From: Chromatiaceae bacterium
GTDB lineage: Bacteria; Pseudomonadota; Gammaproteobacteria; Chromatiales; Chromatiaceae
Assembly: GCA_019356535.1 (NCBI GenBank)
Contig: CP037918.1
Coordinates: 1,240,001 to 1,304,000 of the forward strand
DNA: 64,000 bases
Reading direction: 5' to 3'
The notes below the pieces were generated by a model, which saw only the letters and a program-made list of their open reading frames with translations, made no database searches and had not been told where the DNA came from. Numbering within the stretch: the first letter of the stretch is position 1; each line of letters starts with the position of its first letter. Of the stretch, positions 13,169 to 33,046 are shown in pieces. A program made the translations under genes and the position numbers.

Positions 13169-13276
13169 GCGGCACAAGCAGCTCGCCCGTATCGGGCTCA
13201 CGTCGCACTTTACCCTCCGACCACACCAGCAGAGGCCCGTTCACTCGCTAAGGAATTCATTATGGGGAGGAAAACC

Positions 13277-14065
13277 ATGTTCCAAAAAACCGAAAACAAG
13301 ATTGTTACCCGTATCGCACCGCTGGGCCTGGCGATAGGCCTGGCTCTGGGGGGGATGGGAGTCGCCAGTGCCTCATCGCACGGTGGTGGCGGCGTTGCCG
13401 GTCCTTACCTCACCGACGCCGAGGGCAAGGCGGTATTTACCGGCTTCAGCAAATGCTGGAAGACGGTCGGTGGGGTGGCCACCGCGGTTCCCGAGTGTGG
13501 CGACCCGGTCATGAAGCAGGAAGAAAAGAAAGAAGCTCCGAAGGACTCGGATGGCGACGGCGTGGTCGACGGCCGTGACGAGTGCCCCAACACCCCGAAA
13601 GGTGTCGAGGTCAATGCCTTCGGTTGCCCGCTGGACACCGATCACGATGGCGTGGCCGACTACATGGACAAGTGCCCCAACAGTCGTCCGGGGGCGCGTG
13701 TCAATGCCGAGGGTTGCGAAATCATCGAGAACATCACCCTCCAGACCACCATCGACCATTTCGATTTCGACAGCGCCGAACTGAAACCCGCCATGATGTC
13801 GGTTCTGGAGGATATCGCGGCCAAGCTGAAAGCCTCGCCAGGCAATGAGCAGGTGCTGCTGATCGGCCACACCGATTCCACCGGACCGGAAGGCTACAAC
13901 CAGCGTCTGTCCGAGCGTCGTGCGCAGTCTGCCGCCGACTACCTGGCTGGCAAGGGCATCACCAACCTGAGTCTCAAGGGCATGGGTGAGCGTGAGCCGG
14001 TGGCCGACAACGCTACCCGTGAAGGCCGTGCCGCCAACCGTCGTGTGGAGATCGTGATCAAGTAA
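13277..14065 (+). CDS. OmpA-family outer membrane protein with TSP3 repeats
   Basis: A 262-residue exported protein: signal peptide to about residue 37 (ending ASA), a short Gly-rich segment with a Cys pair, two calcium-binding thrombospondin type 3 repeats (DSDGDGVVDGRDECPNTP and DTDHDGVADYMDKCPN, about residues 88-140), then a C-terminal OmpA peptidoglycan-binding domain (IGHTDSTG, NRRVEI). It lacks the N-terminal eight-strand barrel of true OmpA. Likely role: tethering the outer membrane to peptidoglycan. GGGAGG precedes the ATG; a strong promoter and a terminator frame it, consistent with an abundant monocistronic mRNA. Confidence 0.92.
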   Translation: MFQKTENKIVTRIAPLGLAIGLALGGMGVASASSHGGGGVAGPYLTDAEGKAVFTGFSKCWKTVGGVATAVPECGDPVMKQEEKKEAPKDSDGDGVVDGRDECPNTPKGVEVNAFGCPLDTDHDGVADYMDKCPNSRPGARVNAEGCEIIENITLQTTIDHFDFDSAELKPAMMSVLEDIAAKLKASPGNEQVLLIGHTDSTGPEGYNQRLSERRAQSAADYLAGKGITNLSLKGMGEREPVADNATREGRAANRRVEIVIK

Positions 14066-14084
14066 TTGCTACGGTACCCACCAC

Positions 14085-14116
14085 AAAAAAGCCGCGGCTG
14101 TTGCCGCGGCTTTTTT
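14085..14116 (+). terminator. Strong rho-independent terminator, probably bidirectional
   Basis: An 8-bp GC stem GCCGCGGC (14091-14098, 14103-14110) with loop TGTT is flanked by six A on the left and six T on the right, so the stem extends to 14 bp and can work on both strands. Confidence 0.95.
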
Positions 14117-14224
14117 GTTGCCCCCTTGTCAGGGCATCCCTGAAAAACCACACTTTCTCCTCCCCCATGGAAGGAGAGAGGTTGGGAAGGAGCTTTCCAA
14201 CTAAGGAGTTACGCCCCCTCCTGA

Positions 14225-14246
14225 CCTCCCCCGCAAGCGGGGGAGG
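14225..14246. repeat. REP-like palindrome, copy between ompA-type gene and purB
   Basis: Perfect palindrome with arm CCTCCCCCGC and an AA loop, the same core as at 3185-3206. It lies in the 184-base convergent gap with no gene. Confidence 0.7.
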
Positions 14247-14300
14247 AACTGGTTCGGAGGTTCCTCAGGGAAACAGAGATCCTTCGGAGACGACAGGTTC

Positions 14301-15737
<1,437 letters not shown>

Positions 15738-15774
15738 CTAAGTAAAGCCACGCTCCCCGTGGGCGGGCCTCAGG

Positions 15775-16401
15775 TCACACCGTTTGTTCCAGCAGGGTAC
15801 GGGCAGTGGCCGCCAGGCGACGACGTCCCAGCAGGAACTGCCAACGTTTGCCGCCACATTGACGCCAGAGCACGACAGCGCGCAGCCCGGCGAGCAGGCA
15901 GGCGCGGATATCGTCGGCGATCTTCGGGTTCTGCAGGTACAGAGGTTCGCCCTTGACCAGGATGGGCGGCGGCACCGGGCTGACATGGCGCTGGTACAGG
16001 CGGGCGAGCTGGGCGTGCAGGGGAAAGTCCGGCAGGTCGAAATGCACCTGTTTGTCTTTCAGCTGTTCCAGCTCGCGACCGAGCTCGGCGAGCCGTTCCT
16101 GGTCGCGGCGCAGCTTGTCGCCATGATGCAGCAGACCGATCACGTAGCGCGCGATCTCCAGATCACGCGAGGCCGGCGATTCGAGCTGTTCGACCAGAGT
16201 CAGCAGGCCCAGGCGCACCCCGGCAAGGTTGCCGAACACCGCCTCGGTGCTCTCGGGCTCGAAGGTGAACAGCGAGCCGATGCTGGCTGCCATGGCCTGT
16301 TCGTCGGCGCGGCCGTGGCGCGCCAGGTCACGCACCAGACGTGCGGCCTGGAAGACCCCGGCCAGGGCCAGGGTGCGCTCGTTGTCGTCGTGGTGGCTCA
16401 T
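15775..16401 (-). CDS. hflD: High frequency lysogenization protein HflD homolog
   Basis: HflD is a membrane-associated helical protein named for its effect on lambda CII; its cell function is unclear. The 208-residue product starts [20 protein letters not shown], which is the family N-terminus, and ends near LLEQTV. Its ATG overlaps the mnmA stop by 4 bases (ATGA), indicating coupling. Identification rests on N-terminal similarity, length and position. Confidence 0.9.
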
Positions 16402-17483
16402 CGGATGATGCCTCCGCCCAGACAGATGTCGTCCTGGTAGAACACCACCGACTGACCCGGGGTGATGGCGCGCTGGGGCTCGGCAAAACGCACCTGCGCC
16501 AGCTCGCCGTCGAGGGTGACTTCGCAGGCCTGCAGGGGTTGACGATGACGACAGCGTGCACGACAGGTGAATTGCGCGGCGGGTGGCTGGCCCGCCACCC
16601 AATGGAGCTGCTCGGCGGTGAGTTCCCGTCGCAGCAGGGCAGGGTGATCGTGGCCTTGCACCACGCGCAGCACGTTGCGTTCGAGGTCCTTGGCGGCCAC
16701 GAACCAGGGGCGGTTGTCGCCATCGGCGCGTCCACCAATGCCCAGGCCCTGGCGTTGCCCGATGGTGTAGTACATCAGGCCCTGGTGGCGGCCGATCACC
16801 TCGCCTTCGAGCGTCTCGATGTCGCCCGGCTGCGCGGGAAGGTATTGCGCCAGGAAGTCACGGAAGCGGCGCTCGCCGATGAAGCAGATACCGGTACTGT
16901 CCTTCTTGCGGAAGTTGGCAAAACCGGCCTGCTCGGCGATCTGCCGCACTGTGGGCTTGGGCAGATCGTGCAGCGGGAACAGGGCATGTTGGAGAGCACG
17001 CTGCCCCAGCATGTAAAGGAAATAGGTCTGGTCCTTGTTCTCGTCGGCGGCACGCACCAGTTCGCAGCGGCCATCGGGCAGGCGGCGGATGCCCGCGTAA
17101 TGGCCGGTGGCGATGTAATCGGCCCCCAGGTCGAGGGCATAGTCGAGAAAGGCCTTGAACTTGATCTCACGGTTGCACAGCACGTCGGGATTGGGCGTGC
17201 GCCCGGCTCGGTATTCGGAGAGAAAGTGCTCGAACACCCGGTCCCAGTACTCGGCCGAGAAGTTGATCGTCAGCAGCTCGATGCCCAGGCGCTCGGCGAC
17301 CTGTTGTGCATCGGCCAGGTCCTCGGCGGCCGAGCAGTATTCTTCGGTGTCGTCCTCTTCCCAGTTCTTCATGAACAGGCCGGTGACCCGGTAGCCGGAC
17401 TCGAGCAGGCGCAGGGCGGCCACCGAGGAGTCGACGCCCCCGGAAAGACCGACGATCACATGGGCACCTGTCTCAGTCGTCAT
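16398..17483 (-). CDS. mnmA: tRNA-specific 2-thiouridylase MnmA
   Basis: MnmA adds sulfur to U34 of tRNA-Lys, -Glu and -Gln using ATP and persulfide from the Tus relay. The 361-residue protein shows the PP-loop SGGVDSS (residues 15-21), the first catalytic Cys in [12 protein letters not shown] and the second in STGICFIGE. Length is standard. It overlaps hflD downstream and the Nudix gene upstream by 11 bases. Confidence 0.97.
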
Positions 17484-17937
17484 TGCCGGTCTCCAGGTCG
17501 TGCAGCAAGTCCAGCGGATGGGCGATGCCCCGCTCGGCGTCGCGCACGCATTCCATCACCAGGGGGCTGCGCAGGGGCAGGCGGCCAGAGGCCAGTTCAT
17601 CTGCCTCTGCCCAGCGCAGGCCCAGGATGGCCGGGTCGCGGACCTGGTCGGCGATCTCGCCGTCGGTCTCGCCGAGAAAGCAGAAGCGCAGGTAGGTGTC
17701 GCCATCGGCTCTGGTCTGCCAGCGGTAGATGCCGAGCAGGGCAGTGGGGCGAAAGGCCAGGCAGGTCTCCTCGCGAACCTCGCGAATCACCGCATTATGC
17801 AGGGACTCGCCGGGTTCCAGGTGCCCGGCCGGTTGGTTGTATACCGGCGCGCCATCCGGTGCCTCTTCGACCAGCAGGTGACGACCAGCCGAGTCGCGGA
17901 TGACGGCGGCGACAGTGACGCGGGGGCTCCATCTCAT
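17473..17937 (-). CDS. nudJ: Nudix hydrolase NudJ-like phosphatase
   Basis: A 154-residue Nudix protein resembling NudJ (HMP-PP, GDP and UDP hydrolase), which commonly sits just upstream of mnmA. The N-terminus [11 protein letters not shown] and [12 protein letters not shown] match. In the Nudix box the Gly after the Glu pair is replaced by Cys (REVREETC), an uncommon change but not in a metal ligand. The start may be the ATG at 17937 or the GTG at 17943; neither has a strong ribosome site. Confidence 0.85.
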
Positions 17938-17973
17938 GAGCACATTCTACTCGTCGGCAGGAAGCAGAAACAG

Positions 17974-17998
17974 AAACCCCGGCACGAGGCCGGGGTTT
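17974..17998 (-). terminator. Hairpin terminator after the BI-1 family gene
   Basis: Arms AAACCCCGGC (17974-17983) and GCCGGGGTTT (17989-17998) are a perfect 10-bp inverted repeat with a 5-base loop, ending in T run on either strand. It lies between the minus-strand BI-1 gene (ending 18019) and nudJ. Confidence 0.75.
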
Positions 17999-18018
17999 AC
18001 AGGGCAGGACGGGGAGAA

Positions 18019-18690
18019 TTACTCGTCGCTGCCGAAGATGCCGAGAATCTGCAACAGGCTGATGAAGATGTTGAAGATGGTCAGGTACAGGCCGTAGGTG
18101 GCCATGATGTAGTTGGTCTCGCCGCCACGCACGATGCGCGCGGTGTCAAACAGGATGAAGCCGCTCATCACCAGGATCACGCCGGCAGAGACGGCCAGGG
18201 ACAACGCCGGCAACTCCAGGAAGATGTTGGCGACCATGGCCACCACCAGCACCATCATGCCGGCGAACAGGAAGCCGCCGAGGAAGCTGAAGTCGCGCTT
18301 GCTGGTCAGGGCGTAACCCGACAGGCCAAGGAAGATCACCCCGGTGCCCCCAAAGGCGGTGGCGATGATCTGCGGCCCGTTCGGCAGCGCCAGGTACATC
18401 GACAGGATCGGCCCCAGGCCGAAGCCCAGCAGGCCGGTAATGAGGAAGATCACGCCGATGCCGGCAGCCGAGTTGGCGGTGCGCGGCAATACGAAGATGC
18501 CCAGCACCATCGAGACGATCACCGAGACCATGTAGGCGATCGGCGGCATGTTCATGCTGATCGACACCCCTGCCATCAGGGCGCTGAAAAACAGCGTTGC
18601 CGACAGCAGCAGGTAGGTGTTCTTGAGAACCTTGTTGATCGAGCCCGCCTGTGTGGCGGTGCCGGAAACAACGGGTTGATAGCGATTCAT
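18019..18690 (-). CDS. Bax inhibitor-1 family membrane protein (YccA-like)
   Basis: A 223-residue integral inner membrane protein with about seven hydrophobic helices, typical of the BI-1/YccA family, which modulates FtsH proteolysis in E. coli and may be a calcium-leak channel. The C-terminal part IVRGGETNYIMATYGLYLTIFN and the final short acidic tail are family features. Start MNRYQP at 18690 with GGGAGGG 10 bases upstream. Confidence 0.92.
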   Translation of the reverse strand: MNRYQPVVSGTATQAGSINKVLKNTYLLLSATLFFSALMAGVSISMNMPPIAYMVSVIVSMVLGIFVLPRTANSAAGIGVIFLITGLLGFGLGPILSMYLALPNGPQIIATAFGGTGVIFLGLSGYALTSKRDFSFLGGFLFAGMMVLVVAMVANIFLELPALSLAVSAGVILVMSGFILFDTARIVRGGETNYIMATYGLYLTIFNIFISLLQILGIFGSDE

Positions 18691-19008
18691 GGTGTCATTG
18701 CCCTCCCAAGGCATCAGGAAACCGTAATCCTGTCACGAATAAGACCCCGTGCCGGGGCCAAAGTTCGCTCCAGCATACTGAAAAAGGCGCCGGGGTCAAT
18801 GCGACAGAGGCGCGGCAAAGACGGTTGTTTTACGGGGGATTTCCGGTATATTGCCCGCCTCTGGCCACAGTGCCTGAGCGCGCCGTCGCCCCGAAGGGGA
18901 TAAGGGCCTGTTTCGGCACCCCTCCCGGCCGTTTCCACACGTGGGGGGAGGGGAATGCAGAACCTTTTCAGGGGTTCTTCAGAACCAGGCGCAGTGGACA
19001 GGAAATCC
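18691..19008 (+). promoter_or_regulatory. Gene-free stretch with probable tRNA-Ser promoter
   Basis: No gene is seen in these 318 bases. A plausible promoter for the tRNA is TTGTTT (18825-18830), 16 bases, TATATT (18847-18852), which would leave a leader of about 150 bases that must be trimmed. A GGGGAGGG octamer matching the E. coli KOPS consensus lies at 18945-18952, pointing toward the dif site. Confidence 0.35.
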
Positions 19009-19099
<91 letters not shown>

Positions 19100-19105
19100 T
19101 ACACG

Positions 19106-19128
19106 AAGGCCCCGCCTGGGGCCTTTGT
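19106..19128 (+). terminator. Terminator after tRNA-Ser
   Basis: Stem AAGGCCCC (19106-19113) with GGGGCCTT (19118-19125), loop GCCT, followed by TGTC. Confidence 0.7.
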
Positions 19129-19328
19129 CATGTCAGGAGCGGATCGGGATGACAAATGATTGGCGGCCTCCGCCTCGATTCTGCGTCCCCATTTGGCCCA
19201 TGTACGTTCAGGGCGCCAATCCTTGCTCCCTTACGCCTTGGTTGTTCCCGCGAGTGCTTCCTGGTCTTCAAGGGTGCTTGTAACAACCTGTATTCGCGCG
19301 CAAAATCACGGCCGACAGGGAAGTGACC

Positions 19329-19839
19329 ATGACGCCTGAACAACAAGTGCGAGAAAAGATCGACGAACTGCTCGCCCAAGGCGGCGGGAACATCCAGGAT
19401 CCGGGCGAGGCCCACATTCACGCAGGGCGGGCGTTGCCATTCGCGAGTTTCCGCTACCGGGACATGGCTTTGCCAACTACCTGCTGTACGTGGATGGCGC
19501 ACGGCCGCTGGCGTCATCGAGGCGAAGAAGGAAGGTGCCACGTTCAGTGGCGCCGAGCCCCAGTCCGACAAATACACCACGGGGCTGCCGGAAACCCTAC
19601 CGGGCTGGCAACGTTCGCTGCCGTTTTCCTACCAGTCCACCGGTACAGAAACACGCTTTGCCAATGGTATTGATCCCCAACCGCATTCGCGATCAGTATT
19701 CGCGTTTCACCGCCCCGAGCAACTGGCCGAATGGCTGGACTCCGAACCACGGCGAATCGCCGATGACCGAGGCGAATACGGCATCGGCGGTAAGACCTTC
19801 ATCGCTATCAGCTTCATCCCACGACAGGTAGGTGCATGA
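19329..19839 (+). pseudogene. Relic of type I restriction subunit HsdR
   Basis: The translated pieces read as the N-terminus of HsdR split over frames. A first part starts TPEQQVREKIDELL, after which the frame must shift to read GVAIREFPLPGHGFANYLLYVDG, and again to read AAGVIEAKKEG, the EAK of the nuclease active site. The last frame runs to RPEQLAEWL, then jumps to GIGGKTFIAISFI, which resembles the Walker A region ATGSGKTFTAISFI. So there are at least two frameshifts and a deletion of some tens of codons before the motor domain, and the rest of the gene is gone. Its last stop overlaps the next gene's ATG. Non-functional. Confidence 0.8.
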
Positions 19840-20837
19840 AAACCCAACATCTGTGGATGGTCCGCGCCGGAGAAGGTGGCAAGTGGATCGATGAGTTCCG
19901 CAAGCACCAAGTGGTTGCCGTGGGTTGGCCGCAATTGGGGCCTATAAACGTTGGAGTCTCGCGGGAAGAAATCGCACATAAGGGGATGAAGGAGTGGCCC
20001 AATGCCAGTCGATCCACCATTGGTAGTAGTGCTGGACAGGTCTTTCGCTTCCTCAACGAATTGCAGAAGGGAGACATCGTGGTCAGCTATGATCCGAGTC
20101 GCCGCATTTATCACGTCGGGAAGATAGAGGGAGACCCTGAGTACCAGCCGGAGTTGATCGAGGAATTGCCCAGGGTTCGATCAGTCAGTTGGTTTGCAGA
20201 AGTATCCAGGGACAAGCTCAGTGTCCCAACACGCAATAGCCTCGGGGCAATCTCCACGCTATTTCAATTGCCACCGGAAGCCGCTGAAGAAATACTCGCT
20301 GTCTCGCAGGGAAAGGAAGCGGGAGAAACGGAGGACAAGGAGCAAGAGGACGACGATACCGAAGAGATTACACGCGACCTTCGCACTCGGTCTCACGAGT
20401 TCATAAAGGATCGCATTATCCGTCTCGAATGGTCGGAAATGCAGGAGCTGGTTGCCGGACTCCTGCGCGCGATGGGCTACAAAACGCGCATTTCACCCGC
20501 GGGGGCCGACCGGGGAAAGGATATCATCGCTTCGCCGGACGGGTTTGGTTTCGAACAGCCTCGCATTGTCGTAGAGGTCAAGCACCGACCCAATTGTGCA
20601 ATGGATTCCTAGGCCATCCGAAGTTTTCTCGGTGGCCGGCACAAGGATGACAAGGGACTGTATGTGAGCACCGGCGGTTTCACAAAAGACGCCCGGTACG
20701 AAGCTGAAAGGGCGGCGATCCCCTTGGTCCTGATGGATCTGGATGACATCGCGCATGAGATACAGCGACACTACGACGAAATGGACATGGAAGCCAAGCG
20801 ATTGATCCCATTGACCAAGATTTATTGGCCTGCTTGA
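19836..20837 (+). pseudogene. Mrr-like restriction endonuclease interrupted by one in-frame TAG
   Basis: The open frame runs from ATG 19836 to TAG 20610-20612 (258 residues) and resumes in the same frame to TGA 20835-20837, giving 333 codons. Residues 1-150 form an N-terminal domain beginning MKTQHLWMVRAGEGGKW. Residues about 195-330 form a Mrr-type nuclease domain: GADRGKDIIA supplies the catalytic Asp and VEVKHRP the Glu-x-Lys. The TAG lies shortly after VEVKHRP, followed by IRSFLGGRHKDDKGLYVSTGGF. A CAG-to-TAG change explains it. Truncation removes the C-terminal third of the nuclease fold, so the product is likely inactive unless the amber codon is suppressed. Confidence 0.8.
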
Positions 20838-20852
20838 TAAGGAGATGAGCTG

Positions 20853-21731
20853 ATGGCCAGAAGGAAACAGAACGTATTCGAGGACTTGGTCGAGCTGGCT
20901 GCAGGCATGCCGTGGTGGCTGGGGCTTTTGCTAGCCTTGATCAGTTATCTTGTTCTCCATTTCTTCGCCAGCGAGCCACCGAATGCGGTACGGGCTACAA
21001 ACCTCGACCAGATGGGGCAGGTGGCTGCTGTCCAGCTTTACCGCACTTTGGCCGCGATTGGGCAATACCTGGTTCCTTTTGCCTTTGTTATCGGCGCCGG
21101 TGTTTCTGCCATTGGACGAATGAAGCGCAAGGCGCTGCTTGAAGAGACCGCAAAATCGACGGCCTCAGAGCCCGTCAAGTCCTTGTCCTGGCGGGAATTC
21201 GAGATGCTCGTTGGCGAGATGTTCCGGAACAAGGGATTCTCCGTTACCGAAACGGCAAAGGGTCCGGATGGCGGTGTCGATCTCGAACTGCGGAAAGCTG
21301 GTGAGTTGTCTCTGGTGCAATGCAAGCAGTGGCGTGCCACCAAGGTTGGCGTCAGTGTCGTTCGTGAGCTGTTTGGCGTCATGGCGGCCAGAGGCGCTGT
21401 CAGTGCCTATGTGGTCACGTCGGGTACGTTCACCGAAGAGGCCAGGAAGTTTTCCCGAGGGCGCAACATCATCCTGATTGATGGAAAAGCGCTCGAAAGG
21501 GAAATCCGCAGGCAGGCCAAATCCAGATCGAATATCACGGATATTGCCAGCGCACGGCGCGAACGTGAGCGCCCGATGCAAACCGTAGTCGTTCTGGACA
21601 CGCCGCCCGATTGTCCGAACTGCGGCGCCAGCATGGTCAAGCGCGTGGCAAAGCAGGGATCTCATGCCGGAAAGGCATTTTGGGGCTGCAGTCGGTTCCC
21701 GAAATGCCGTGGAACCCGCGCTCTCGAATAA
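20853..21731 (+). CDS. Membrane-anchored Mrr-like restriction endonuclease with zinc finger
   Basis: A 292-residue protein. Residues about 18-40 and 68-90 are hydrophobic helices, then a restriction-endonuclease-like (Mrr) domain at about 108-215 with GGVDLEL (catalytic Asp) and VQCKQW (Gln-x-Lys), then a C-terminal topoisomerase-type zinc finger (CPNCGASM through CSRFPKC). Such anchored Mrr proteins are thought to cleave foreign or modified DNA at the membrane; this is family knowledge, not shown here. GGAGATGAG precedes the ATG at 20853. It directly follows the interrupted Mrr-like gene, so it is the only intact member of the cluster. Confidence 0.85.
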   Translation: MARRKQNVFEDLVELAAGMPWWLGLLLALISYLVLHFFASEPPNAVRATNLDQMGQVAAVQLYRTLAAIGQYLVPFAFVIGAGVSAIGRMKRKALLEETAKSTASEPVKSLSWREFEMLVGEMFRNKGFSVTETAKGPDGGVDLELRKAGELSLVQCKQWRATKVGVSVVRELFGVMAARGAVSAYVVTSGTFTEEARKFSRGRNIILIDGKALEREIRRQAKSRSNITDIASARRERERPMQTVVVLDTPPDCPNCGASMVKRVAKQGSHAGKAFWGCSRFPKCRGTRALE

Positions 21732-21846
21732 ACTCGAGCAAACCTGAGTAAATTTGTACGAGCATCCCGATTCGGCCGGCGGAATGGGCAAGTTGTCCAT
21801 TTCAGCCCGCGTGTTCCCGAAGAGCTCCCTTCGGGACAAACGAGCT

Positions 21847-21874
21847 ATTTAACATAATCTGTATTATGCGAACT
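21847..21874 (-). other. dif: Chromosomal dif site (XerC/XerD recombination site)
   Basis: On the minus strand the 28 bases have a left arm ending TTCGCATAA and a right arm TTATGTTAAAT separated by a 6-base centre. Compared from memory with the E. coli dif site, the right 11-bp arm is identical and only five positions differ overall, three of them in the tolerant central region. Such sites normally occur once per chromosome, at the replication terminus, where XerCD resolves chromosome dimers. It lies at the downstream edge of the restriction cluster. Confidence 0.85.
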
Positions 21875-21920
21875 AATGGGGGGCTGGGGCAAGGTGTGCC
21901 GGGGCCGCCAGGCGTTTGTT

Positions 21921-23093
21921 ATGCTCCTCGGCATGCAGCCGTTCTATTTCCCTGGCGAATTCGCCCTCGATCCCGACATCTGCTATCTCAACCATGCCGC
22001 GGTGGCGCCCTGGCCGAAGCGCACGGCGCTGGCGGTGGAGCGTTTCGCCCGCGAAAACATGCTTCGGGGTGCCAGCGATTACCCACGCTGGATGGAACTT
22101 GAGCAGCGGTTGCGCGAGCGCGCGGCCTGGCTGATCGGTGCGCCATCGCCCGATGACATCGCGCTGCTCAAGAACACCTCCGAGGGGTTGTCCTTCGTTG
22201 CTGGTGGTCTCGACTGGTCGCCGGGCGAGCGCATCGTCGGCATCAGCGACGACTTCCCCTCCAATCGTGTGGTCTGGGAATCGCTGGCAGCACACGGCGT
22301 TCACTTCGACAAGGTGGACGTGAATGCCGTTGCCGACCCGGAACAGGCACTGATCGACGCGTTGCGCCCCGAGACCCGGTTGATGGCGGTCAGCAGCGTG
22401 CATTTCGCCACCGGTCTGCGACTCGACCTGGCACGCCTGTCGGCGGCCTGCCGGGAGCGCGGGGTGCTGTTGTGCGTCGATGCTATCCAGTCGCTGGGTG
22501 CCCTGCCCTTCGATCTGCGCGAGGTGCCGGCGGATTTCGTGGTCGCCGATGGCCACAAGTGGATGCTGGGTCCCGAGGGGCTGGCAGTGTTCTACGTCAA
22601 CCCGGCAATCCGCGACCGCCTGCGCCTGCTGGAATACGGTTGGGCCATGCGCGAGGTGGCCGGTGACTACGGCACAGGCAGCTGGCAGATTGCGCGCTCG
22701 GCCCGGCGCTTCGAATGCGGCAGCCCCAACATGCTGGGCATTCACGGACTGGAGGCCAGCCTGTCGTTGCTGCAGGAGGTGGGCATGGAGACGGTCGCCG
22801 GACATCTGCACCGCAATGTGCACTACCTGCGCGAGGGACTGTCGGCCCTCCCCGGGGTGCGGATCGTCACCCCGGCCCCGCCAGAACGACATGCCGGCAT
22901 CCTGGCCTTCGCCGTCGAGGGCATCGCCAGCGAGACCCTGTACCGGCGGCTGATGGCGCGCCAGGTGATTTGCGCCTGCCGGGGTGGTTTTGTGCGTTTC
23001 TCGCCCCATTTTCATACCCGCGAGGCCACGCTGGAACGCACGCTCGAGATCCTGCGCGAGGAGATGGCCGCATGCAACGCACGTTCATCCTGA
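21921..23093 (+). CDS. Class V aminotransferase (cysteine desulfurase-like fold)
   Basis: A 390-residue PLP enzyme of fold type I. The cofactor lysine is in DGHKWMLGPEG (about residue 213 from this start), the PLP-contacting Asp is in LLCVDAIQSLG, and YLNHAAVAPWP is the usual N-terminal substrate loop. It lacks the conserved catalytic Cys loop of IscS-type desulfurases, so it could act as a kynureninase-like or isopenicillin epimerase-like lyase or transaminase. The start is uncertain: 21921 (MLLGMQP) or 21933. It begins 47 bases after dif. Confidence 0.85.
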   Translation: MLLGMQPFYFPGEFALDPDICYLNHAAVAPWPKRTALAVERFARENMLRGASDYPRWMELEQRLRERAAWLIGAPSPDDIALLKNTSEGLSFVAGGLDWSPGERIVGISDDFPSNRVVWESLAAHGVHFDKVDVNAVADPEQALIDALRPETRLMAVSSVHFATGLRLDLARLSAACRERGVLLCVDAIQSLGALPFDLREVPADFVVADGHKWMLGPEGLAVFYVNPAIRDRLRLLEYGWAMREVAGDYGTGSWQIARSARRFECGSPNMLGIHGLEASLSLLQEVGMETVAGHLHRNVHYLREGLSALPGVRIVTPAPPERHAGILAFAVEGIASETLYRRLMARQVICACRGGFVRFSPHFHTREATLERTLEILREEMAACNARSS

Positions 23094-23272
23094 TCGGACT
23101 GTTGCTGCTCCTGCTGGGGCTGTTCTGGCCCTGGCTGCGTCACCTGCCCTTCGGTCGCCTGCCGGGGGATATTGTCATCCAACGCGAGGGTTTCACCTTC
23201 TACTTCCCGGTCACCAGCATGATCCTGCTGAGCCTGGTGCTCAGTCTGCTGGCGTGGTGGTGGCGGCGCTAA
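23072..23272 (+). CDS. Small membrane protein, DUF2905 family
   Basis: A 66-residue protein with two hydrophobic helices (residues 3-20 and 43-62) separated by LPFGRLPGDIVIQREGFTF, the DUF2905 hallmark. Function unknown. It starts inside the last 22 bases of the aminotransferase gene, so it is translationally coupled. It is convergent with the RND pump, whose gene ends 4 bases away. Confidence 0.88.
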   Translation: MQRTFILIGLLLLLLGLFWPWLRHLPFGRLPGDIVIQREGFTFYFPVTSMILLSLVLSLLAWWWRR

Positions 23273-23275
23273 GCG

Positions 23276-26200
23276 TCAGCCAGCGCGCTCCCGGTAGCGT
23301 ATCAGGCGCTCCATCCCCTGCATCACCAGCGAATAGACCGCCGGCACCACCACCAGGGTGAGCAGTGTGGAGCTGATCATGCCGCCGATCACCGCCACGG
23401 CCAGCGGGCCGTTGGTGTCGGCGCCCGCACCTACCCCGAGGGCTGCGGGGAGCATGGAGAAGATCACGGTCAGCGAGGTCATCAGCACCGGGCGCATGCG
23501 GATGGGACAGGCCAGCATCAGGGCCTCGTGTACGCTGCGGCCCTCGGCACGCAGTTGATTGGTGAGGTCGATCAGCAGGATGGCGTTCTTGGCGACCAGG
23601 CCGATCAACAGGGTCATGCCGATCATTGAGTAGATGTTGAGCGTGTGGCCGGCCAGCCACAGACCGAAGATCCCGCCGACGATGGCCAGCGGCTGGGCGG
23701 TCATCACGATCAGTGGCTGGATCAGGGAGTTGAACTGGCTGGCCAGGGTCATGTAGACCAGGATCAGGCCGGTGGCCATGGCGAACAGCACATAACCCGT
23801 CGTCTTGCTGAACTCCTTGGCGCGGCCGATCAACTCGATGCGGTAGCCCGCGGGCAGCAGGTCGGCCGCCTCGCGCAGCACGATCTGCGCGGCATCGCCT
23901 TCGGCAATGGTCGGGGTGGCGAAGAAGGTGGCGGCGTATTGCAGGTTATAGCGCCCGATGGTCGCGGGGCCAAGACGCCGTTCCAGGCTGGCGACGCTGT
24001 CCAGGTGAATCATCTGTCCCGCACGGTTGCGAACCAGGATACGTTTCAGGTCTTCGGGTTGGCGGATCTGTCCGTCGGCCTTGAGGCGGATGTCATAGCG
24101 CTCGCCGTCGCCCGGTTCGTCGTTGTACTTGGCCACGTCCATGCCACCGGCCAGCACGCGCAGGGTGCGCCCCACGCTGGCGGTATCCAGGCCTGCCTGC
24201 CGGGCTTTCTCACGGTCCAGGCGTACCCGCAACTGGGGCATGTCGAGCTGGAGGTCGGTATCCAGGCTGCCGATCTCGGGAATCTGTTGCAGGCGTTGCC
24301 TGAGCGTCTCTGCCAATTGCGCCACACGCTCCAGGCGAGGACCGGTGAGCACGAACTGCAGGGGCTCCCCGCGCTGTCCGCCGATGATCGGTACCGGCGA
24401 GGCAAAGGCGCGGATGCCGGGGATGGCCTGCAATTCCTCGCGCACTGTCTCCAGGATCTGCTTCTGGGTGCGTTGGCGTCGTTCGCGCGGCACCAGGCTG
24501 ACATATACCTCGCCCTTGTTGACCTGACCGCGCTCGCCAGTGCCGATGGTGGAGAACAGGCCATGGATCTCGTCGTGCTGCTGAAGCACCTGCTCGATAC
24601 GCTGCAGGCGATCGCGGGTGTACTCGATGCCGGCTCCCTGCGGGGTGCGGAACGACACGATGAAGCGCCCTTCGTCCTCGTCCGGCATGAAGCCCTTGCC
24701 CAGTTGCCCCAGGAAGCCGCCGCTGCTGTACACCACCAGCGCCGACAGGCCGATGACCAGCCAGCGTTGTCTGAGTGTGCCCCCGAGCAGGCGACGGTAG
24801 CCGCCCTCCATGGCGCGAAACGCGGCTTCCAGTGCGCGATATACCGGCCCGTGCCGCGGTTCGACCCGCAGGTAACGGGCGCACAGCATGGGAGTGAGCG
24901 TCAGGGAGACAAACAGCGACACCAGGACGCCCAATACCACGACCACCGCGAAAGAGCCCACGAAGCGACCGATGATGCCCTGCATGAACACCACCGCGCC
25001 GAACAGCGCCACCAGAGTCAGGGTGGAGGCGAGCACCGCGAACATCACCTGGCGGGTGCCGCGTTCGGCCAGTGCGGCACGGTCCTCTTCCGGCGCCTCT
25101 TCCATGTGACGGTGGATGTTCTCCAGCACCACGATAGCGTCGTCCACCACCACGCCGATGAGCAGCAGCAGGCCGAGCAGGGTCATGACGTTGAAGGTGT
25201 AGCCGGCGAAGTACATGCCGGCGATGGCACCAAACAGGGACACCGGGATGGCCGTGGCCACGATCAGGGTCGAACGCAGACTGCGCAGGAACAGCCAGAC
25301 CACCAGCGCTGCCAGCAAGGTGCCTTCCAACAGGTGTGATTGCAGGGCCTCGACGATCTGCAGGATACGGTCGGCATCGTCTACCACCACGTCCAGCCGC
25401 ATCCCCGGTGGCAGCTGCGGCAGGATCTCCTCACGCAGCCGCCGCTTGGCCTCATCGATGATGGCCACGGTGTTGCTGCCCGAGATGCGCACCAGGCCCA
25501 GGCCGATCGCCGGCTCGCCGTCGTAGGTGGCGAGGCGCCGGAAATCGGCCTCGGCATCGTGCACTTCAGCGATGTCGCGCAGGTGGATGGGGCGGCCTTC
25601 GCGCCAGGCGACGATAAGGTCGTTCAGTGCCGCCACCTGGTGGAACTCGAAGTCGAGCTTGAGCTGGTACTCCCCTCGCCCGCTGCTCACGAAGCCGCCC
25701 GGCAGCTTCAGGTGTTCGCGCCCGAAGGCGGCGACCACTTCATCGACCCCGATGCCCAGTGCCGCCAGCCGGTCGAGCGCCAGGCTGACGCGCACCGTGC
25801 GTTCGCGGGCGCCGGCGATCACCACGTCGCCCACGCCGGAGATGGTCTCCAGGCGCTTCTTGATGACGTTGCGGGCATAGCGATCGAGCTGTTGCAAGGT
25901 GCGGTCGCCACGCAGCGCCAGCCACATGATCGGCAGGGAGCCGGCCTCGACTTTCTTGAGTACCGGGGTGTCGGCCTCGTCCGGCAGCTTGCGCAGGATC
26001 TCGTTGAGCTTGGCCTGCACCTCGTTGAAGGCGACGTCGATATCCTTTTCGAGCACGAACTGGATGACGACCAGCGACACCCCCGACAGCGACGACGAGC
26101 GGATGCTCTCGATCCCCGAAACACTGTTCACCGCCGATTCGACGACATTGGTGACCGCGGCATCCACGATAGCGGGATCGGCACCCGGTACCGTGGTGGA

Positions 26201-26341
26201 GACCGAGAGCATGGGGAAATCGATCTGCGGCAGACGGTCGACGCCGATGCGCTGGTAGGCAATAGTGCCGAAGAGGATCAGCACCAGGCTGGCCATCAGG
26301 GTCAGCACGTGCTGCCGGATCGACAGCGCCGGCAGATTCAT
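23276..26341 (-). CDS. RND efflux transporter, inner membrane pump (HAE1/AcrB family)
   Basis: A 1021-residue proton-driven pump with the AcrB layout: N-terminal helix, first periplasmic loop, six helices, second loop, five helices. The proton relay Asp pair is visible in GVVVDDAIVVLENIHRHM. It is a little shorter than AcrB and resembles the MexK/VexF-like heavy lineages of single-MFP systems. It overlaps the adaptor gene upstream by 4 bases (ATGA). No outer membrane channel gene is adjacent, so it presumably uses a TolC encoded elsewhere. Substrates cannot be deduced. Confidence 0.95.
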   Translation of the reverse strand: MNLPALSIRQHVLTLMASLVLILFGTIAYQRIGVDRLPQIDFPMLSVSTTVPGADPAIVDAAVTNVVESAVNSVSGIESIRSSSLSGVSLVVIQFVLEKDIDVAFNEVQAKLNEILRKLPDEADTPVLKKVEAGSLPIMWLALRGDRTLQQLDRYARNVIKKRLETISGVGDVVIAGARERTVRVSLALDRLAALGIGVDEVVAAFGREHLKLPGGFVSSGRGEYQLKLDFEFHQVAALNDLIVAWREGRPIHLRDIAEVHDAEADFRRLATYDGEPAIGLGLVRISGSNTVAIIDEAKRRLREEILPQLPPGMRLDVVVDDADRILQIVEALQSHLLEGTLLAALVVWLFLRSLRSTLIVATAIPVSLFGAIAGMYFAGYTFNVMTLLGLLLLIGVVVDDAIVVLENIHRHMEEAPEEDRAALAERGTRQVMFAVLASTLTLVALFGAVVFMQGIIGRFVGSFAVVVVLGVLVSLFVSLTLTPMLCARYLRVEPRHGPVYRALEAAFRAMEGGYRRLLGGTLRQRWLVIGLSALVVYSSGGFLGQLGKGFMPDEDEGRFIVSFRTPQGAGIEYTRDRLQRIEQVLQQHDEIHGLFSTIGTGERGQVNKGEVYVSLVPRERRQRTQKQILETVREELQAIPGIRAFASPVPIIGGQRGEPLQFVLTGPRLERVAQLAETLRQRLQQIPEIGSLDTDLQLDMPQLRVRLDREKARQAGLDTASVGRTLRVLAGGMDVAKYNDEPGDGERYDIRLKADGQIRQPEDLKRILVRNRAGQMIHLDSVASLERRLGPATIGRYNLQYAATFFATPTIAEGDAAQIVLREAADLLPAGYRIELIGRAKEFSKTTGYVLFAMATGLILVYMTLASQFNSLIQPLIVMTAQPLAIVGGIFGLWLAGHTLNIYSMIGMTLLIGLVAKNAILLIDLTNQLRAEGRSVHEALMLACPIRMRPVLMTSLTVIFSMLPAALGVGAGADTNGPLAVAVIGGMISSTLLTLVVVPAVYSLVMQGMERLIRYRERAG

Positions 26342-27393
26342 TGCGTGTTCTCCGGCGCCTTCACGGAGACCCGGGCACCATCGCTCAGGTAGGCAGCGCC
26401 GTCGAGCACGACCCGGTCGCCGTCCCCGAGCCCGGACAGGATCTCCACCTGGCCGTCACGACGGATGCCGGTGACCACCGGGACTGCCTCGACCCGGTCG
26501 TCTTCGCGCAGCCGATAGGCCACGATGCCCGCCGGGCGCTGTACCAGCACGGCCTCGGGCACCAGGAGGGCGTTGCGATGGACCGTCAGCTCCACGTCCG
26601 CGTTCAGATGCAGGCCGGGCGGCCAGTCAGCCGTATTGTCGAAATCGGCCAGTGCGACGAGGGCACGATTGGCGTCCTCGAGCATGGGCAATACCTTGTC
26701 CAACCGGGTCTTCAGCCGCCGCCGTCCATCGTCCAGGATCACCGGCAGGCCGGGTTTCAGGCGGTTGGCCAGGGTGTCTGGAAAGTACAGGCGGGCTCGG
26801 AGGTGGCGGGTGTCGACGATGCGAAACAACGCCTTGCTGGCCGGCGACATGGGGTTGAGGTAGTCACCGACCGAGACCAGTCGTTGCTGTACCACGCCAT
26901 CGATCGGCGAGAGGATGCGCGTATGCGACAGCTGGTAGTCGGCCTTCTCCAGCAGGGCGCGTGCATGCGCCAGCGCTGCCCGGGTCTGCTTGACCGCGGT
27001 GCGTGAGGCATCCAGCCGGGTATCGGGGACCAGACCCTTGGCGAACAGCCGCTGGTCACGCTTCAGGGTGAGTTGCTGATTGGCCAGGGTTGCCTCGAGA
27101 CGGGCGATATCGGCCAGCACGGCCTTGCGGTCCAGGCGAAAGCCCTCGTCGTCCAGCCGCGCCAGCAGCTGGCCCTTGCGCACCGTATCGCCCTCGTCCA
27201 CGCGGATCTCGACCACCTCGGCGCTCACCTTGCCGTGCAACAGGGGCGCGTTGCGGGCTTCGATCTGCGCTGGCACACGCACGCTTTCGCGGATCTCGCC
27301 CTGGTGCACGTTGACCAGAGTCACCGGCACGCCCTGTTGCACCGGCCAGGCGAGCAGCGGCCACAACAGCAGCAGATACAGGAACCGGACCAT
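26338..27393 (-). CDS. RND efflux periplasmic adaptor (membrane fusion protein)
   Basis: A 351-residue HlyD/AcrA-type adaptor: N-terminal signal or anchor (residues 2-18), lipoyl-like half motifs (VEIRVDEGDTVRKGQLLARLD), an alpha-helical hairpin, the second lipoyl half (RILSPIDGVVQQRLVSVGDYL), and beta-barrel domains. The start at 27393 shares bases with the stop of the TetR gene (TGATG), with GGAGGAGGG about 10 bases upstream. It is the middle gene of the regulator-adaptor-pump operon. Confidence 0.93.
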   Translation of the reverse strand: MVRFLYLLLLWPLLAWPVQQGVPVTLVNVHQGEIRESVRVPAQIEARNAPLLHGKVSAEVVEIRVDEGDTVRKGQLLARLDDEGFRLDRKAVLADIARLEATLANQQLTLKRDQRLFAKGLVPDTRLDASRTAVKQTRAALAHARALLEKADYQLSHTRILSPIDGVVQQRLVSVGDYLNPMSPASKALFRIVDTRHLRARLYFPDTLANRLKPGLPVILDDGRRRLKTRLDKVLPMLEDANRALVALADFDNTADWPPGLHLNADVELTVHRNALLVPEAVLVQRPAGIVAYRLREDDRVEAVPVVTGIRRDGQVEILSGLGDGDRVVLDGAAYLSDGARVSVKAPENTQ

Positions 27394-27998
27394 CACGTGC
27401 CCTCCTCCAGGCCGAGCGGGCCGCGCAACATGGCCAGGGCCAGGGCCGCGACCTGTTGTGGATCGCGCGGTGCCGGCTGCTCCAGCGCCAGATGGGGACG
27501 CAGGCCTTCCATGGCATCGTGCTGTTTGAGCATGCCCAGCACCATCTCCGAGAGCAGCAGGGCATCGCAGTCGGGGTTCAGCTCGCGCAGCAGCGCCATG
27601 AAGGGGATCTGGATGCGCGCGAACACCGCGTCGCCGAGAAATGCCAGGCGTTCACCGTCGCCATCGAGCAGTTCACGGTCGATCAGGCGCCGGAAGGCCG
27701 GTGAGTGACGGATCTCGCTGGCCGCGACGAGCAGGAAGTCGGCCAGCCGTTCGGCCGGCGCACCCGGGTGCTCCAGGGCCTCGAGCAGACGCTGGGCCTT
27801 CTCCTCGAAGGCGGCGGCCACCGCGGCGCGGTACAGCGCGGCCTTGTTCGGAAAATGGTTGTACAGCGCCGGTGGCGTGATGCCCACGGCAGTGGCGATA
27901 TCGCGGACCGACACCCCGTTGTACCCCCTTTCACTGAAATGCTCGATGGCCGTCTCGAGCAGACGGTCGCGCGTATCTTCGCTGCGCCTGGCCAGCAT
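27393..27998 (-). CDS. TetR family transcriptional repressor of the efflux operon
   Basis: A 201-residue TetR/AcrR-type regulator. The N-terminal helix-turn-helix reads VSVRDIATAVGITPPALYNHF, followed by the NKAALY start of the ligand domain. It is the first gene of the operon with the adaptor and pump. A palindrome 18 bases upstream of its ATG is the likely operator, so it should repress its own transcript and be released by a ligand that the pump exports. Confidence 0.93.
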   Translation of the reverse strand: MLARRSEDTRDRLLETAIEHFSERGYNGVSVRDIATAVGITPPALYNHFPNKAALYRAAVAAAFEEKAQRLLEALEHPGAPAERLADFLLVAASEIRHSPAFRRLIDRELLDGDGERLAFLGDAVFARIQIPFMALLRELNPDCDALLLSEMVLGMLKQHDAMEGLRPHLALEQPAPRDPQQVAALALAMLRGPLGLEEGT

Positions 27999-28015
27999 GC
28001 GTCACCCCGAGGTGA

Positions 28016-28031
28016 ATGAACGTTCGTTCAT
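28016..28031 (-). promoter_or_regulatory. Probable TetR operator
   Basis: Inverted repeat ATGAACG (28016-28022), TT, CGTTCAT (28025-28031), 18 bases from the TetR start. The arm containing GAACG is typical of AcrR/TetR-type operators in efflux systems. Confidence 0.75.
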
Positions 28032-28306
28032 GATAGGTCGCCTAACGGGCATTGAAAAGCCCTGTGCGGTGCCATGGCGCGAACGATGCGCGGTGAAATT
28101 CGGGGGAAGAAGATGTGATTCAGCAAGCGATTCGATGATTCATCATATCATCCGATATCTGAAGTGTACTTCATATGGCATTGTAATACCTGGATATCTC
28201 ATGGGTATGTAAATTGGGATTGCCATCTGATAATTGCCCGTGAAGTTATCCCTCGATCAGGCCGGTCTATACTTCTGAATAACAACACCAACCCGGGAGG
28301 TTGGGC

Positions 28307-29230
28307 ATGCACAAACTCTTGAAGTGGATCGATGAAAAGGCCACCAAGTGGCTGATCCACGATGGGCCGCCACCGCTCACCCCCCTGTGCGACTTCAAGC
28401 GACTCCAGTTCGAACTGCGTCCTGGCGACGTGTTGCTGGTCGAAGGTCGCAGCCGGGTGGCAGAGGTCATCAAGAGCATCACCCAGAGCCCCTGGAGCCA
28501 TGCCGCCCTGCACCTGGGCCGCCTGCACGACATCCGCGACCCGACACTGCGCGAGCGGGTGCTGGCCCACTATGCGGGCGATCCCGAGGAACAACTGCTG
28601 ATCGAGGCCATCATCGGCAAGGGCACCATCGTCACTCCCTTGTCCACCTACCGCGAAGACCACCTGCGGATCTGCCGTCCCGCCAGCCTGTCGCCCGACG
28701 ACGCCCAGCGCGTCATCGACTATTGCGTGCATCGCCTGGGCCTGGACTACGACATGCGCCATGTCCTCGATCTGGCGCGTTTCTTCTTTCCGTGGGGCAT
28801 CCTGCCGCGGCGCTGGCGCTCCAGCCTGTTCCAGCACAATGCGGGCGAGCCGACGCGCGCGGTGTGCTCGACCCTGATCGCCGAAGCCTTCATGGCAGTG
28901 GACTATCCCATCCTGCCGTTCATCGACCGCGAACAAGACGGCAGCATCCGCTTCTTCAAGCGCAATCCCAAGCTGTTCGCGCCGCGCGATTTCGATACTT
29001 CGCCTTATTTCGACATCATCAAGTACCCCTTCCTCGGCATCGATGAGCTGGGTCTTTACCGCAAGCTGCCCTGGAGCACCGGGGACACCTACTACAACGA
29101 CGAGCCCGAGGGCATCGCACATCCTGCCGGTGAGAAACCTTCACAGGCGTTGGCCACGAGCGGAATCGACGAGCACGAGTTGTCGACCCTGCCCCGCTGG
29201 CTGGGACGCCTGGGCGGAGGTGGAGGATGA
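28307..29230 (+). CDS. YiiX-like NlpC/P60-superfamily cysteine hydrolase
   Basis: A 307-residue protein resembling the permuted papain-like YiiX/YebB group. SPWSHAALHLG holds the probable catalytic His and AVCSTLIAEAF the Cys; LRPGDVLLVEG opens the domain. These enzymes are linked to lipid or peptide amide hydrolysis at the envelope. No signal peptide is seen. ATG 28307 follows GGGAGG. The 275 bases upstream are AT-rich for this genome with a weak TATACT -10 candidate at 28268, but I could not find a convincing -35. It is 22 bases ahead of the acyl-CoA dehydrogenase, so it may belong to the lipid operon. Confidence 0.75.
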   Translation: MHKLLKWIDEKATKWLIHDGPPPLTPLCDFKRLQFELRPGDVLLVEGRSRVAEVIKSITQSPWSHAALHLGRLHDIRDPTLRERVLAHYAGDPEEQLLIEAIIGKGTIVTPLSTYREDHLRICRPASLSPDDAQRVIDYCVHRLGLDYDMRHVLDLARFFFPWGILPRRWRSSLFQHNAGEPTRAVCSTLIAEAFMAVDYPILPFIDREQDGSIRFFKRNPKLFAPRDFDTSPYFDIIKYPFLGIDELGLYRKLPWSTGDTYYNDEPEGIAHPAGEKPSQALATSGIDEHELSTLPRWLGRLGGGGG

Positions 29231-29252
29231 AACATCACTGGAGGAGAACGCC

Positions 29253-31760
29253 ATGTGGCTCATCGGCCTGATCGCGACGGTCGCCCTGGTCTGGTTCCTG
29301 GCCTATCAGGGTGCCGGGGCCACCCTGTGGAGCACGGTAGTGATCGCTGGCCTGGTGGCGGTGACCCTGGTCGCCGACATCGCCTGGTATGCCTTGCTGC
29401 CGCTTTGGTTGCTTGCCGTAGCCGCCATGCTGCTGCTGGGCGTGCCGCGCCTGCGCCGGCGTTACGTTACCGCGCCGCTGCTGCACCAGTTCCGCAAGGT
29501 GATGCCGGCCATGTCGGACACCGAGCGCGAGGCACTGGAGGCCGGAAGTGTCTGGTGGGATGCCGAGTTGTTCTCGGGGCAGCCGCACTGGGGGCGTCTG
29601 CTGCGCCTGCCGCGCCCGCACCTGAGCGCCGAGGAGCAGGCCTTCCTCGATGGCCCGACCGAGCAGCTCTGCCGCCTGCTCGACGACTGGCAGATCACGC
29701 ATCACGAACGCGACTTGCCGCCCGAGATCTGGGACTTCATCCGCCGCGAGGGCTTCTTCGGGCTGATTATCCCGAAACGCTATGGCGGCAAGGGCTTCTC
29801 CGCGCGCGCTCATTCCGAGGTGGTGATGAAACTGGCCAGCCGCAGCGTGACCGCCGCCGTGACCGTCATGGTTCCCAACTCGCTGGGACCAGGCAAGCTG
29901 CTGCTCAGCTACGGCTCGCCCGAGCAACGTGATCAGTATCTTCCGCGCCTGGCCAGCGGGGAGGAGATCCCCTGCTTTGCGCTCACCGCGCCGGATGCCG
30001 GCTCCGATGCCGGGGCCATTCCCGACCACGGCGTAGTCTGTTACGGCGAATGGCAGGGCGAGCGCGTGCTCGGTGTGCGCATCAACTGGGAAAAGCGCTA
30101 CATCACCCTGGGCCCGGTATGCACCCTGCTGGGACTGGCCTTCCGCCTCTACGACCCCGAGCACCTGCTCGACGAAGAGGAGGACCGCGGCATCACTCTG
30201 GCGCTGATCCCGCGCGATACCCCGGGGGTGGAAATCGGTGCGCGTCACGTCACCCTGGATATCCCGTTCCAGAACGGCCCCAACCGAGGACGCGACGTGT
30301 TCGTGCCCCTGAGCCAGCTGATCGGTGGCGAGCGCCACATCGGCAACGGCTGGCGCATGCTGGTCGAATGCCTGTCGGAGGGGCGTGGCATCTCCCTGCC
30401 CTCGCTGAGTGTGGGCGCGGGCAAGCTGGCCAGCCGCTACACCGGGGCCTATGCAGCCATCCGCCAGCAGTTCGGCATGCCCATCGGGCGCTTCGAGGGC
30501 ATCGAGAAGCCACTGGCGCGTATCGCCGGGCTCACCTACCAGATGGATGCCGCACGCAATCTCACCCTGGACGGACTGGATCTGGGCGAAAAACCCTCGG
30601 TGATTTCGGCCATCGTCAAGTATCACCTCACCGAGAAGTACCGCCAGTGCATCAACGACGCCATGGACATCCAGGGCGGCAGTGGCATCTGCCTGGGGCC
30701 GAACAATCCTATCGGCAGGGTGTACCAGGCCATTCCCATCGCCATCACGGTGGAGGGCGCCAACATCCTCACCCGCAGCATGATCATCTTCGGCCAGGGG
30801 GCAGTGCGCGCCCACCCCTGGGTGCTCAAGGAGTTCCAGGCCGCGCAGAACCCCGAGCGACGGCAGGGTCTGGCCGATTTCGATCATGCCCTGTTTGGCC
30901 ACGTTGGCTTCCTGCTCGGCAACCTGGCACGCAGCCTGTTCCTGGGGATCACCCGCGGACGCTTCAGCCGCGCCCCGGTCGATGGCCCCACGCGCCGCCA
31001 CTACCAACGGTTGAACTGGATGAGTGCCGCCTTCGCGCTGTGCGCCGACGTGGCCATGATGACCCTGGGCGGCTCGCTCAAGCGCAAGGAACGCCTCTCG
31101 GCCCGCCTGGGCGACATCCTCAGCGAACTGTACCTGAGTTCGGCGGTGCTCAAGCGTTTCGAGGATCAGGGCCGGCCGAAAGATGACCTGCCGCTGCTCG
31201 AATGGTGCATGGAGCAGTCCATCTACCAGATGCAGGAGGCCTTCCGCCTGCTGTTCCGCAACCTGCCCGGGTGGCCACTGGGCTGGCTGCTGCGCCTGCT
31301 GGTGTTCCCCAGCGGTCAGCCTTTCACCGAACCACACGACCGCCTCGATCACCGGGTGGCGCAGATCCTGCTGCACCCGGGCGCGGCACGTGACCGGCTC
31401 ACCGAGGGCATCTTCATCACCGATGACCCGGCTTTTCGTATCGGCCAGCTCGAACAGGCCCTGCGCCAGGCCGAGCACGTGGCGCCGATAGAGAAGACCC
31501 TGCGCGAGGCGCGCCGCAATGGCCTGATCGATGCCCGCGCGCCCCTGCGTGCGGCCGAGCAGGCTCTGGCTCAAGGCTTGATCGACGAGAACCAGCTCGA
31601 CGCCCTGCGCACCATGCAACGGCTGCGAGCCCAGGTGATCGCGGTCGATGCCTTCGACGACTACGGGCACCAGTACGTGCTGGAGCGCCCCTTCACCCGC
31701 CCCGCCAATGTTCACCCCATCGAGGAGGCCCACCATGTCCACACACGCCAACCGCAATGA
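29253..31760 (+). CDS. fadE: Acyl-CoA dehydrogenase, FadE type
   Basis: An 835-residue flavoprotein for the first step of fatty acid beta-oxidation (acyl-CoA to trans-2-enoyl-CoA). The length and N-terminal hydrophobic helices (residues 1-60, with VVIAGLVAVTLVADIAWYALL) are those of the large E. coli FadE, not of the 380-residue form. FAD-domain motifs ALTAPDAGSDAGAIPD and the C-terminal GGSGICLGPNNPIGRVYQ are visible. Start at 29253 preceded by GGAGGAGAA. Next gene starts 26 bases before its end, a short overlap. Confidence 0.93.
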   Translation: MWLIGLIATVALVWFLAYQGAGATLWSTVVIAGLVAVTLVADIAWYALLPLWLLAVAAMLLLGVPRLRRRYVTAPLLHQFRKVMPAMSDTEREALEAGSVWWDAELFSGQPHWGRLLRLPRPHLSAEEQAFLDGPTEQLCRLLDDWQITHHERDLPPEIWDFIRREGFFGLIIPKRYGGKGFSARAHSEVVMKLASRSVTAAVTVMVPNSLGPGKLLLSYGSPEQRDQYLPRLASGEEIPCFALTAPDAGSDAGAIPDHGVVCYGEWQGERVLGVRINWEKRYITLGPVCTLLGLAFRLYDPEHLLDEEEDRGITLALIPRDTPGVEIGARHVTLDIPFQNGPNRGRDVFVPLSQLIGGERHIGNGWRMLVECLSEGRGISLPSLSVGAGKLASRYTGAYAAIRQQFGMPIGRFEGIEKPLARIAGLTYQMDAARNLTLDGLDLGEKPSVISAIVKYHLTEKYRQCINDAMDIQGGSGICLGPNNPIGRVYQAIPIAITVEGANILTRSMIIFGQGAVRAHPWVLKEFQAAQNPERRQGLADFDHALFGHVGFLLGNLARSLFLGITRGRFSRAPVDGPTRRHYQRLNWMSAAFALCADVAMMTLGGSLKRKERLSARLGDILSELYLSSAVLKRFEDQGRPKDDLPLLEWCMEQSIYQMQEAFRLLFRNLPGWPLGWLLRLLVFPSGQPFTEPHDRLDHRVAQILLHPGAARDRLTEGIFITDDPAFRIGQLEQALRQAEHVAPIEKTLREARRNGLIDARAPLRAAEQALAQGLIDENQLDALRTMQRLRAQVIAVDAFDDYGHQYVLERPFTRPANVHPIEEAHHVHTRQPQ

Positions 31761-33033: not shown

Positions 33034-33046
33034 AGGAGACAAGGCC

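Follow-up and report, generated by a model that had tools for sequence, protein, structure and literature searches.

This locus raises the question of whether the replication terminus of a Chromatiaceae chromosome lies here, marked by a dif site, and, if it does, how the site came to occupy its present position. We analysed a stretch of 64,000 bp (hereafter the window), which covers bases 1,240,001–1,304,000 of a chromosome assembled as one contig of 2,745,378 bp (G000:C1), with the candidate site at 1,261,847. Our best explanation, to which we give a probability of about 0.97, is that this is the chromosome's single dif, predicted to serve XerCD/FtsK resolution at a polarity junction, and that an inversion of about 110 kb appears to have relocated it. 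The dif itself is genuine, ordinary, and expected; it fixes the chromosome terminus and confirms genome organisation, and taken alone is routine. The inversion is less expected and is the only unusual aspect.

A single dif site and its recombination machinery

The site lies between genes and consists of two arms around a central hexamer:

21847..21874, minus strand: dif site, 28 bp, 22/22 arm positions, single chromosomal copy, 25% G+C, intergenic
21847-21857: XerD arm
21858-21863: central hexamer (TACAGA on the minus strand)
21864-21874: XerC arm

These bases read ATTTAACATAATCTGTATTATGCGAACT on the plus strand and AGTTCGCATAA-TACAGA-TTATGTTAAAT on the minus strand. The arm score of 22/22 is against RNTKCGCATAA / TTATGTTAAAT, which we take to be the gammaproteobacterial Xer-arm pattern; these arms and the gene content together suggest a gammaproteobacterium. 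The first-pass annotation had claimed a match to E. coli dif at 23 of 28 bases with a perfect right arm and most changes in the centre. Counting bases against the E. coli K12 sequence given in PMC2731167 bears this out: 23/28 are identical, the XerD arm agrees with that of E. coli at 11/11, and three of the five mismatches fall in the central hexamer. Because the site has five mismatches, a search for E. coli dif at up to three mismatches found no match in the window.

Several properties attributed to dif sites in PMC2731167 are present. The highly conserved XerD arm, TTATGTTAAAT, is complete (11/11), and the two 11-bp arms are inverted, pairing at 8/11 positions around the 6-bp centre. The site is also non-coding and low in G+C, lying 115 bp past the stop of an open reading frame that ends at 21731, with others starting at 21876 or later; its G+C of 25% compares with 56% and 66% in the adjoining 2-kb bins. 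It is present in single copy, as the whole chromosome gave one match to the dif pattern at up to three mismatches and none to a reversed-pattern control, and a second dif pattern at up to two mismatches likewise gave one match. In 864 kb of the same genome, scanned at places with at least 7/11 XerD-arm matches, nowhere else reached 17/22 save the same dif read backwards, and the next-best place in the window, by an unlimited scan, scored 16/22. These searches of the chromosome found no second dif and no better one, the latter being among the findings that the annotation had named as counting against it.

The recombinases and translocase expected to act on such a site are encoded. The genome has four tyrosine-recombinase matches, namely XerD, XerC, a piece of an integron integrase, and another integrase. 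XerD, at 1.717 Mb, scores 381.2 bits against TIGR02225 (NCBIfam cut-off 329.6), and XerC, at 35 kb, scores 360.6 bits against TIGR02224 (cut-off 335.15). FtsK-gamma is encoded at 943 kb (E 4.6e-27), with 43 of 62 residues, counted from the alignment, identical to the solved FtsK-gamma chain 2j5p, presumably that of E. coli. All the parts of XerCD/FtsK dimer resolution that we looked for are therefore encoded. We note separately that the integron-integrase gene (L007, G000:C1 about 1,186 kb) is apparently split between two frames, judging from translations. By the mechanism that we propose, each 11-bp arm would be occupied by its recombinase, XerC or XerD, and FtsK, after loading at polarised KOPS, would translocate DNA toward the polarity junction and activate XerD; the two dif copies of a chromosome dimer would then recombine to monomers at division. 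Searching the genome for MatP and Tus family members turned up neither, with the E. coli control detected in both searches, so an E. coli-type terminus system, whether MatP/matS or Tus/Ter, is not apparent.

Skew and KOPS polarity around dif

GC skew was read from a contiguous 224 kb (1200001-1424000) and from 40 sampled 20-kb blocks outside the window (55–67% G+C). All 20 blocks on the left side of the window had positive skew, and all 20 on the right had negative skew. In the contiguous stretch, the cumulative maximum falls at 1,268,222, or 6,375 bp from dif, a proximity of the kind that PMC2731167 describes; the accessible part of that study gives a median distance of 7,277 bp across 161 proteobacterial chromosomes. 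The skew switch is therefore not far from the site, as it would be if the site had been misread. With the sole dif found and the skew maximum this close, the reading that the terminus lies in the window is supported. A DnaA family match starts at base 367 of the chromosome, and dif stands at 46.0% of its length, 111 kb (4.0%) off the origin antipode.

KOPS-like octamers, GGGNAGGG, switch direction across the same site. The window holds 24 of them against 15.2 expected from shuffles (4/100 shuffles reach 24), of which 20 point to dif and four point away (Fisher p = 0.0037):

3024, 5531, 6209, 12756, 16637, 18945, plus strand: left of dif, pointing toward it (span 3024..18952)
3010, minus strand: left of dif, pointing away (left total 6 toward, 1 away)
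22501, 22846, 29187, 30394, 34689, 36433, 37875, minus strand: right of dif, pointing toward it, first half (span 22501..63533)
46018, 55789, 59129, 59540, 61355, 63151, 63526, minus strand: right of dif, pointing toward it, second half
51849, 53429, 61442, plus strand: right of dif, pointing away (right total 14 toward, 3 away)
18945..22501, unstranded: polarity junction (maximal cumulative KOPS polarity), containing dif; G000:C1:1258945-1262500 in the contiguous 1200001-1424000

The five KOPS positions named in the first-pass annotation are all real, although its list was incomplete, and its remark on palindromic sites near 3010 is correct, with 3010 and 3024 forming one inverted pair. It was also right that these octamers point at the site, but it overstated their independence as evidence. 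Over 864 kb, GGGNAGGG counts (plus:minus) were 89:20 on the left and 34:91 on the right, or 180:54 toward dif (0.77). In a control of 42 octamers, each a permutation of G6-A-N and GGGNAGGG among them, the mean was 0.70 toward dif (sd 0.046), and GGGNAGGG ranked second of 42; in the window alone, the mean was 0.61 and GGGNAGGG (0.83) ranked fourth. Since the genome-wide polarity of GGGNAGGG barely exceeds that of its G-rich permutations, KOPS polarity mostly restates GC skew, and we downgraded it as independent proof of dif.

An inversion beside dif and the genes around it

Compared with the congener G005 (91.7–92.1% identity across HSPs that span 250 bp or more and are at least 80% identical), the chromosome is inverted from a point beside dif rightward:

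19009..19098, plus strand: tRNA-Ser(TGA), the final landmark conserved ahead of the breakpoint
19147..20877, unstranded: left inversion breakpoint interval relative to G005, holding hsdR-like and mrr1 remnants
20877..64000, minus strand, on to G000:C1:1370112-1370619: inverted segment from HSPs against G005, with dif at its left edge
20853..21731, plus strand: gene for an Mrr-like nuclease with a Zn ribbon (PF04471 E 6.7e-31, PF01396 E 5.5e-10)
21876..23093, plus strand: aminotransferase class V gene (PF00266), on the XerC-arm side

Same-strand homology to G005 reaches 19147, just past tRNA-Ser, and an inverted match appears first at 20877 (83 bp, 71%), with a firmer one from 21055 (422 bp, 69%). 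In chromosome coordinates, the breakpoints are 1,259,147-1,260,877 and 1,370,112-1,370,619. HSPs are on the same strand left of 1,258,876 (11) and from 1,370,887 onward (8); between 1,261,055 and 1,370,112, 14 of the 15 retained are inverted, the exception being 308 bp at 1342703. One endpoint thus lies 1.0–2.7 kb from dif, and the corresponding breakpoint in G005, which is narrowed down to about 92 bp, is about 1 kb away from its dif. The inverted piece is longer here (about 110 kb) than in G005 (69 kb). Stretches that find little counterpart in the fetched part of G005 account for much of the difference, namely about 36 kb (1,326–1,362 kb), 10 kb (1,290–1,299 kb), and, next to dif, 11 kb. 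A CRISPR-like array also sits in such DNA, running from L060 12336 (G000:C1:1336336) into L061, with 33 + 21 copies of a repeat 12-mer in two sampled stretches at a spacing of about 67–70 bp.

The inversion appears to have moved dif away from the point opposite the origin. In G005, which has dnaA homology at its contig start, dif lies 49.1% of the way along the chromosome and misses the antipode of coordinate 1 by 23 kb, and the KOPS switch interval (1,271,230-1,277,360; 33:3 on the left, 4:21 on the right) contains dif (1,275,640). At the edge of the inverted piece, dif would have been carried from near the dnaA antipode to 1,261,847, at 46% of the chromosome.

It is also conceivable, though improbable, that the window has the ancestral arrangement, the inversion having taken place in G005 or reflecting a misassembly. 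Gene order in the genus points instead to a derived arrangement here. Among the matches listed, block B (Sel1/SH3, MTAP-like, hpt-like, and nagZ-like genes, named from translations) is found less than 4 kb from dif in the congeners G002, G004, G005, and G007, whereas it sits 109 kb to the right of dif in our genome. G005 and G007 carry block A on the opposite side of dif, again among the matches listed; here it begins 11.4 kb right of dif and is inverted. The trmU-like and yccA-like genes of our left flank were near dif in none of the six genus dif contigs examined. No BLAST match was found between the two breakpoints, which argues against misassembly through repeats. In favour of an ancestral window, the base-by-base comparison covered one closely related complete genome, G005, and the order in G005 is not universal in the genus, since the matches listed for G001 include none to block B in the 10.2 kb of contig on the XerD side of dif. 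G001 shares genes found between dif and block B in G004. The G003 contig stops 1.2 kb from dif, and G006 has no dif match.

Because the segment comes from one replichore and ends beside dif, inverted motifs keep their direction relative to dif, and the skew and KOPS switch therefore still falls at dif in both species. What remains is a 46:54 replichore split with motif polarity preserved. Skew in the inverted segment is 0.0240 versus 0.0258 in G005 (difference -0.0018, bootstrap sd 0.0022), and the flanks differ by +0.0036 (0.0030) and -0.0038 (0.0022), all from HSPs no shorter than 250 bp and no less than 80% identical; decay of skew would be expected if forks pass dif. A natural inversion that put dif and the polarity junction 111 kb off the antipode, with no Tus or MatP detectable, could mean that the roughly 110 kb between dif and the antipode is replicated by the 'wrong' fork, which would separate dimer resolution from fork meeting; we hold the odds of this to be about even. 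If true, this lineage would offer a natural way to tell whether the terminus is set by FtsK polarity or by replication termination. We regard the inversion as a modestly interesting natural experiment and as a variation on known chromosome dynamics.

The Mrr-like gene runs toward dif on the XerD-arm side, and its product is predicted to have membrane segments; the aminotransferase gene more likely starts at 21933. Between tRNA-Ser and the Mrr-like gene, 19332-20837 holds restriction-gene remnants. One is an N-terminal stretch that we call hsdR-like solely on the basis of its translation, and another is an Mrr-type gene split by an in-frame stop at 20610-20612. The Mrr-like gene adjoins dif here and in G005 and is 2.3 kb from it in G004. 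The copy in the window is open, whereas that of G005 (L079 about 10083-10955) reads as broken, with two TGA codons inside the match and pieces in different frames. We considered a special link between dif and the nuclease and rejected it. Of the 55 genomes, our own included, just seven have an Mrr-like match, and in only these three is it close to dif; we read the gene as part of an inherited neighbourhood rather than of a functional module.

Restriction-type remnants next to dif could also suggest a mobile origin for the site, with the 28-mer being an attachment site of a Xer-exploiting element (IMEX or filamentous phage att) and not the host dif. The unusual centre, TACAGA, and the 11.4 kb beside dif (1,261.8–1,273.2 kb) that lack a retained match in the fetched G005 stretch would fit such an insertion. 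However, the far end of these 11.4 kb has no second dif-like site (best 11/22, near 33.2 kb), the best other place in the window is the one at 16/22, and the chromosome yielded no other dif at up to three mismatches. The 28-mer also sits at the skew switch, congeners carry a matching site, and the aminotransferase gene beside it is 1.8 kb from dif in G004. The single copy largely refutes the attachment-site explanation, which we consider very unlikely. An IMEX origin of the hexamer was likewise set aside, with no second att-like site in the window, in the sampled genome, or genome-wide at up to three mismatches. A chance palindromic match of no function is less probable still, having in its favour only that the function of the 28-mer is predicted, and against it the full arm score in a G+C-rich genome, the one match with no control match genome-wide, and a position at the polarity junction both here and in G005.

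Comparison with relatives and known systems

Matches to the site at up to two mismatches were found in 38 of 55 genomes, our own included, and in 7 of 8 in the genus, with best matches at zero mismatches in 20 genomes, one in 10, and two in eight. This count takes one match per genome and leaves out further two-mismatch places in G017, G028, and G034. Some weak matches may be due to chance, since 17 of the 55 had no match at this threshold and the reversed-pattern control matched in eight. The central hexamer is TGTATA in 22 of the 38 genomes, TACCTA in G005, and TGTCTA in G007, and our TACAGA is unique among the 38. We also observed an identical 24-bp dif core, including the rare TACAGA, in a contig of a goat-cecum Lentisphaeria MAG (L002 439-462), possibly by chance or through misbinning. 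The unusual hexamer counts against the dif explanation, as do the 4.0% offset from the antipode and a KOPS polarity hardly above that of other G-rich octamers genome-wide. Hexamers vary between species, though: the accessible part of PMC2731167 describes them as conserved within species and weakly between species.

The site resembles E. coli K12 dif in its 28-bp layout, its arms (XerD 11/11, XerC 9/11), and its single copy at the skew switch. It differs in its hexamer, TACAGA versus TGTATA, and the genome differs from E. coli in having no MatP or Tus match. The dif of Nitrosococcus oceani, TGTTCGCATAATACATATTATGTTAAAT (PMC2731167), is closer, sharing 26 of 28 bases by eye. It has the same XerC core, TTCGCATAA, and the same XerD arm, and with its centre TACATA differs at one hexamer base and at the outermost XerC base.

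For the inversion, titles and abstract openings in the literature mentioned nothing specific on natural inversions ending at dif, and we do not claim a first report. In the accessible parts of PMC2483231, zones near the terminus are described as intolerant of inversion endpoints in E. coli and Salmonella, and Yersinia as having 0 or 1 endpoints right around dif. The corresponding part of PMC2585057 reports that large engineered inversions with an endpoint at dif harm E. coli, whereas here a moderate one persists naturally. As far as that part describes it, the engineered E. coli Inv(dif-sp5) resembles our case in ending beside dif, moving the polarity junction, and leaving replichores unequal. 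The inversion here differs in being natural, in its moderate size of about 110 kb, in having its endpoint 1.0–2.7 kb from dif, and in occurring in a genome in which Tus was not found.
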